Source: Methanococcoides sp. AM1 (GTDB taxonomy: Archaea > Halobacteriota > Methanosarcinia > Methanosarcinales > Methanosarcinaceae). From it: a stretch of DNA of 64,000 nucleotides. The position numbers and the translations under genes were made by a program. The stretch spans positions 186,001-250,000 of the forward strand of contig NZ_CAAGSW010000004.1 of assembly GCF_900774055.1 (NCBI RefSeq). The letters run 5' to 3'. The notes under the pieces were generated by a model. It did not search any database and was not told the DNA's origin. It worked only from the letters and a program-made list of their open reading frames with translations. Positions 37,277 to 38,268 of this stretch are shown one piece after another (within the stretch, counting starts at the first letter, position 1; every line of letters starts with the position of its first letter).

Positions 37277-37897
37277 TTACCTTACGCGGAACACGGCACC
37301 GATATCAAGTGCTATCTTTTCACATTTTTTAATATCGATGTCATTAAAGCCCACAACGGTCATACGGGTATGAATACCCGCCGCAATGGAATCTCTTGCA
37401 AAATCCAGCATAGCATTATAGGAACCCTCAAAAGCAGGCCGGCAGATCTCATTATATTTGCTCTCAGATTCTGCATTAAGGCTCACAGACACCTCATCAA
37501 GGCCCGCTTCCTTCAACTCTGCCACAACATTCCTTTCAGGATAGATCAACTGTGCATGACCATTGGTATCAAGCCTTACCTTTACGCCACGTTCCTTGAG
37601 CCAATGAGTGACCTCCAGAAGAACATCAAAACGGAGCGTTGCCTCGCCGAACCCTGTAAATACTACTTCCCGATATTTACCCAGATCAAGAGACTCGAGC
37701 TTTTCTAATATTTCCTCAACAGAGGGTTCTTTTTTGAGGCGCAGATCGTAACCATAAACTCCATCTGAAACATCACGTATGCAGAAAACACAACTTGCAC
37801 TGCATCTGTTAGTTATGTTAAGGTACAGGTTGTCATGCCCTTCGTAGCAAAGTGTACCAACATTCTCAAGATTCCCATCAAATTCGTTTTCTGTCAT
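37277..37897 (-). CDS. Radical SAM protein, TatD-associated type
   Basis: 206 residues. N-terminal LYLNITNRCSASCVFCIRDVSDGVYGYDLRL gives the CxxxCxxC [4Fe-4S]/SAM motif. VVFTGFGEATLRFDVLLEV and VRLDTNGHAQLIYP complete the half-barrel. The short length and sequence match the radical SAM group that often neighbours TatD nuclease genes; no TatD gene is here. Its ATG overlaps the TGA of the UAG-containing gene upstream (ATGA), and AGAGG in that gene's 3' end serves as ribosome-binding site. Confidence 0.88.
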   Translation of the reverse strand: MTENEFDGNLENVGTLCYEGHDNLYLNITNRCSASCVFCIRDVSDGVYGYDLRLKKEPSVEEILEKLESLDLGKYREVVFTGFGEATLRFDVLLEVTHWLKERGVKVRLDTNGHAQLIYPERNVVAELKEAGLDEVSVSLNAESESKYNEICRPAFEGSYNAMLDFARDSIAAGIHTRMTVVGFNDIDIKKCEKIALDIGAVFRVR

Positions 37898-38268
37898 TTA
37901 CAACCTCTTATGTTTACATTATTGTCTTCCCAGTAACCTGACCCCATAACAGGATATTTTTCATATGGAACATTCGGCGAAAGGAAATACATGTCTGCTT
38001 TAGAGCCATTGTCCAACAAAACATCCTCCCTGAAGAACCACTACCCTTCAAGATCATCGATGATATCTAACGTTTCACTATCCACGTTAAAAAGTTCACC
38101 GGAGATCCTTGATTCAGGTTCACTCATCACCACTCCGGGAAACTCATTCATGTCAAGCATACGAAATCTTTCCTTTGTATAGTTCTTAGATACAAGAACA
38201 GAATCACCAAGCAGATGATGATTACAATATCCACATTTCAAAGTGCCGTAAACAAATAAAAGGCTCAT
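37894..38268 (-). CDS. Gamma-glutamylcyclotransferase-like protein with an in-frame UAG (candidate pyrrolysine)
   Basis: Up to the UAG at 38041-38043 the frame encodes only the first 75 residues of a GGCT/AIG2-like fold (LFVYGTLKCGYCNHHLLGDS to SGELFNVDSETLDIIDDLEG). Beyond the UAG the same frame continues with WFFREDVLLDNGSKADMYFL and EKYPVMGSGYWED, exactly the C-terminal half expected for this family. It stops at TGA 37894-37896, overlapping the next gene's ATG. Reading UAG as pyrrolysine gives 124 residues, a normal family length, with Pyl at position 76. ATG 38268 has GGTGGG upstream. A nonsense mutation is the alternative. The substrate is unknown. Confidence 0.75.

Follow-up and report, generated by a model that had tools for sequence, protein, structure and literature searches.

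A GGACT-family gene with an in-frame TAG codon, probably read as pyrrolysine, in Methanococcoides sp. AM1

Organization of the TAG-containing gene

The gene under study is located on the minus strand of the window, that is, the whole 64-kb stretch of Methanococcoides sp. AM1 DNA analysed here. Reading from 38268 to 37894, translation gave 75 codons, a TAG, 48 codons and a TGA, corresponding to 124 residues plus the stop when the TAG is read through (MSLLFVYGTLK...LDIIDDLEG-TAG-WFFREDVLLDNG...YWEDNNVNIRGCK-TGA), and this CDS (37894..38268) was assigned to the GGACT (gamma-glutamylamine cyclotransferase-like) family from its translation and its match to PF06094 [translation of 37894-38268 on the plus strand is meaningless]. 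The TAG, which forms codon 76 and is proposed to specify pyrrolysine (Pyl), lies at 38041..38043 on the minus strand, two codons past the catalytic-type Glu74 (38047..38049, minus strand). The earlier note, which gave no strand, had correctly placed the UAG directly after LDIIDDLEG, and the 48 sense codons beyond it (37897..38040, minus strand) are indeed family-like, being homologous in all 10 congeneric genomes.

Downstream of the GGACT gene is an intact radical SAM gene (37277..37897, minus strand) of the TIGR04038-like type (NCBIfam TIGR04038, E=3e-63), the ATG of which overlaps the GGACT TGA as ATGA, as described before. The GGACT and radical SAM proteins probably work together. Elsewhere in the 64-kb window no TAG-interrupted gene with evident coding potential was seen, and for genes of this kind the GGACT gene is the sole case, as had been claimed.

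Family assignment and structural model

The read-through protein matched the Pfam GGACT profile (PF06094) over residues 4-114 with E=2e-19 and 70.7 bits (cut-off, 22.8), while the 75-residue piece ended by the TAG scored 57.5 bits by itself, indicating that the post-TAG part contributes to the match; the previous statement that read-through gives a family protein of normal length, 124 residues, thus holds. With the profile match, the YGTLK motif and the catalytic-type Glu, the product is a predicted enzyme of the GGACT family. Glu74, invariant in the alignment, was aligned by phmmer with the catalytic Glu82 of human GGACT (3jub), for which 3jud is the structure of the E82Q mutant protein. Also invariant in this alignment are Y7, G8 and L10 in the pre-TAG part, and R80, Y94, F95, L96, G111 and W113 in the post-TAG part.

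In an AlphaFold model (pLDDT 89) obtained with a 17-sequence alignment as input and with Lys placed at 76, this residue is in a short loop joining helix 64-74 and strand 78-85, and the post-TAG codons account for two strands of the GGACT fold, 78-85 and 90-96. Foldseek search with the model retrieved PH0828 (1v30), YkqA and human/mouse GGACT (E 6e-8 to 5e-7). Termination at the UAG would keep Glu74 and remove these two strands together with the invariant residues from R80 to W113 listed above, and because of this loss the 75-residue stub would probably not fold. The fold, the YGTLK motif and the catalytic-type Glu are all common to the GGACT/YtfP-PH0828 family (PF06094; 1v30, 1xhs, 3jud), whereas the UAG so close to the Glu and the coupled radical SAM gene set the present gene apart.

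Pyrrolysine system of the genome

Pyrrolysine, the 22nd amino acid, is an N6-acylated lysine. The genome that includes the window is a draft of 2.48 Mb in 46 contigs with completeness of 99.9%. The search for pylTSBCD proposed in the earlier note identified the complete system as a single cluster (locus L025) in the order pylT, pylS, pylB, pylC, pylD, with a methyltransferase-like gene next to pylD. Among the Methanococcoides genomes, pylS was detected above the curated cut-off in 11 of 11, and the gene for tRNA-Pyl (pylT) is located directly upstream of pylS, with 94% identity in most of them to an approximate M. barkeri query sequence. Two MtmB genes carry one internal TAG each, and the MtbB and MttB frames likewise continue through a TAG. 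The decoder of UAG in this organism would be tRNA-Pyl, with its CUA anticodon, after charging by PylRS.

Some other genes of methylamine metabolism and of the cluster itself were noted in passing. Two MtmB homologs without TAG are present on contig C4 of this genome (G000:C4:32090-33439, L023; and 364686-366047, L024); MtqB, a non-Pyl MtmB homolog of M. methylutens, is known to act on tetramethylammonium and choline (PMC13044021). The pylB gene ends with TAG (L025:5913-5915, minus strand) in all six Methanococcoides genomes checked, and is then followed by 42 open codons overlapping pylC; a TAG at the same place of pylB has already been noted for M. burtonii (PMC2933860).

Usage of TAG as terminator and inside genes

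Stop usage was measured on 816 kb, or 33% of the genome, for a total of 678 ORFs with best-frame coding potential. These gene-like ORFs end with TGA (351), TAA (312) or TAG (15; 2.2% of 678), whereas TAG makes up 17.9% of the stop trinucleotides in the same 816 kb. Furthermore, at least 10 of the 15 TAG "ends" lie inside evident genes, including five methyltransferase genes [two for MtmB, one for MtbB and two MttB-like, of which one is truncated by the edge of its stretch] and five others, i.e., the genes for GGACT, a P-type Ca-ATPase, a PAS histidine kinase, a second histidine kinase and an acidic protein. Apparent true TAG ends are those of pylB and a macro-domain gene, and the remaining three are ambiguous or probably antisense. 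As a control, the scan for coding sequence flanking a stop gave 29 TAA and 26 TGA cases, among which no gene evidently interrupted by TAA or TGA was seen; as judged by eye, without homology case by case, these are ordinary boundaries with a nearby start, or antisense frames. The scarcity of TAG termination and the presence of internal TAGs in unrelated genes indicate that UAG is ordinarily readable here, and together with the full pyl system they support the earlier proposal that the host decodes UAG as Pyl.

The PAS-domain histidine kinase gene (L040:13803-17558, G000:C5, plus strand) carries TAG at codon 588, followed by 663 further codons. The identical codon is TAG in two congeners, G004 (L086) and G003 (L087), of which the proteins are 78% and 66% identical to that of this genome (G000), and it is TCA for Ser in G006; this kinase is a better candidate than GGACT for a maintained Pyl site. 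In the P-type Ca-ATPase gene (L028:1651-4248, G000:C4, minus strand), TAG is at codon 79 with 786 further codons, and all the congeners read have CAG for Gln at this position [the gene of G010, the nearest congener, is frameshifted just past the codon]. The acidic protein, without Pfam match (L104:15750-17051, G000:C2, plus strand), has TAG at codon 163; it is 81% identical to the uninterrupted G010 protein, and codon 163 is AAG for Lys in the three nearest congeners, a change identical in kind to that of GGACT. In the second histidine kinase gene (L108:24-980, G000:C3, plus strand), the TAG is within the HATPase_c domain. Since several genes carry such a TAG, and one of these TAGs is common to three species, internal TAG codons belong to the biology of the genus.

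Codon 76 among relatives

Orthologs of the GGACT gene are open across codon 76 in all 10 congeneric genomes, with 51-82% identity, post-TAG part included; the nearest congener shows 82% identity over the whole protein. Homology of the post-TAG codons in all 10 excludes a chance reading of this segment. Conservation of UAG in close relatives, for which a check had been proposed, was not found: codon 76 is a sense codon in 10 of 10 congeners, eight of which have Lys (the nearest with AAG, seven others with AAA), one GAA and one AAC, and the other family members read likewise have a sense codon. Position 76 is variable across the family (K, E, D, N, S, V, I or P), and UAG was found at this site in none of the GGACT orthologs read, as opposed to the pattern of a conserved functional Pyl site. 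Two TAGs found in other GGACT sequences were set aside: that reported in G109 is at the natural gene end, and that in G066 (L062, G066:C35:51500-53800) is at another position, in a broken, decayed fragment from another genus.

A TAG private to the species, at a variable site, with AAG in the nearest congener, suggests a recent and tolerated change of AAG to TAG. On the sequence comparison, the GGACT UAG is a one-step, species-private change at a variable site, and the pattern points to the lack of a functional role of Pyl. The gene probably gained its UAG recently, when one AAG became TAG in the variable loop that links the helix of the catalytic Glu to the following beta strand. In a pairwise comparison with the nearest congener, dN/dS was 0.25 before the TAG and 0.13 after. 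Changes unique to the species were 5 synonymous and 5 non-synonymous before the TAG, and 4 and 7, respectively, after, all being very small counts. A GGACT match was absent from 49 of 112 family genomes, indicating that the gene is dispensable in some.

Read-through of codon 76 and its alternatives

With the complete pyl system, the internal UAGs and the near-absence of UAG as terminator, codon 76 is most likely read as Pyl, at least in part, to give the 124-aa product, and we consider this probable. Pyrrolysyl-tRNA and release factor would compete at UAG 76; Pyl would replace Lys76, and at least some rounds of translation would yield the full-length enzyme of 124 residues. Pyl insertion, its efficiency and the enzyme activity are what we infer from the sequence. 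No recoding structure (PYLIS-like element) was detected 3' of the UAG beyond chance (z = -0.14), and Rfam gave no notable match; such a structured element is not required, Pyl insertion being regarded as the outcome of Pyl-tRNA competing with the release factor (PMC9499178). For a UAG introduced in M. acetivorans, Pyl read-through of 20-30% has been observed, and in archaea of this kind UAG appears to act both as a sense codon and as a terminator (PMC2933860).

The TAG could instead be a nonsense mutation at the onset of gene decay, by which mostly the 75-residue stub is made and full-length product is negligible or unneeded. The lack of the TAG in all 10 congeners, the excess of lineage-specific non-synonymous changes past it (7 versus 4 synonymous, though in small counts), the 49 of 112 family genomes without GGACT match and the known decayed fragment in G066 are in line with this explanation, but the frame is otherwise intact up to the ATGA overlap, dN/dS against the nearest congener is no looser after the TAG than before, and TAG recurs in several unrelated genes, with none evidently interrupted by TAA or TGA as judged by eye. 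We therefore regard decay as unlikely. An error of base calling, the true codon being AAG, is conceivable for a draft assembly of 46 contigs, and the AAG of the nearest congener is one base from TAG; the genome completeness of 99.9% and the TAGs in other genes, one of them at the identical codon in three species, make such an error very unlikely. ATG/GTG/TTG-type codons are present 7 and 8 codons past the TAG, and could allow two products through termination followed by internal re-initiation, but the post-TAG part consists merely of the last strands and the tail of a single compact fold, and in none of the genus genomes is the ortholog split at codon 76, leaving this explanation scarcely credible.

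The reading as a Pyl protein proposed in the earlier note thus stands as far as the complete pylTSBCD, a UAG inside a frame homologous on both sides, the UAG in other intact genes and the rarity of TAG ends are concerned, but a special role of Pyl is not supported: codon 76 is sense in 10 of 10 congeners, which under the refuting condition set in that note makes the UAG a recent mutation private to the species. The substitution of Pyl for Lys76 is probably close to neutral, and a functional need for Pyl in GGACT is not supported. GGACT-family enzymes handle gamma-glutamyl-amines, and the imine of Pyl76, an electrophile, would be only two residues away from the catalytic Glu; a functional Pyl76 that binds, for instance, methylamine or ammonia as a sensor or substrate handle is nevertheless highly improbable. 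If true, Pyl would be of importance here in an enzyme that has no part in methyl transfer.

Comparison with known UAG-containing genes

The closest precedent is Thg1 of M. acetivorans, in which the amber codon was acquired in that species only, is translated as Pyl and is dispensable for activity (PMC2933860). Both Thg1 and GGACT are widespread non-methyltransferase genes with a UAG gained in a single species; for Thg1, translation as Pyl and its dispensability have been shown, whereas GGACT is another gene of another genus, known from its sequence. Have et al. also described in-frame UAG in Methanosarcinaceae genes other than those for methyltransferases, in their case a cluster of histidine kinases, a gene family different from GGACT, and proposed neutral fixation of UAG for Pyl organisms (PMC3639795). 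MtmB, MtbB and MttB share with GGACT a UAG read, in our interpretation, as Pyl in the same genome, but their UAG is ancient, conserved and catalytic, while that of GGACT is species-private at a variable site. A Science 2025 paper on the 'Pyl code' reportedly described some archaea, with M. burtonii among those studied, that read all TAG as Pyl; this would cover Methanococcoides and predict read-through of GGACT.

The GGACT UAG adds one small case to a phenomenon already known, without new mechanism. Standard annotation would label the gene as a fragment or pseudogene. GGACT, the Ca-ATPase, both histidine kinases and the acidic protein together show that UAG recurs in ordinary Methanococcoides genes. 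It arises mostly in individual species, out of an AAG or CAG codon, a pattern to be expected if UAG has in effect the status of a sense codon. The find is of value mainly as part of a group of candidate Pyl proteins of Methanococcoides that can be tested, with concrete peptides to seek.

Arrangement of the GGACT and radical SAM genes in other genomes

The GGACT and radical SAM genes overlap or abut each other in most of the congeners, with the radical SAM start further downstream in L006 and L007. A single ORF of about 330-340 aa combines the GGACT domain with the sequence downstream of it in the related genus g11 and in one genome of g9 (loci L044, L048, L052, L058, L065 and L077), and in L044 the fused part is clearly a radical SAM protein.
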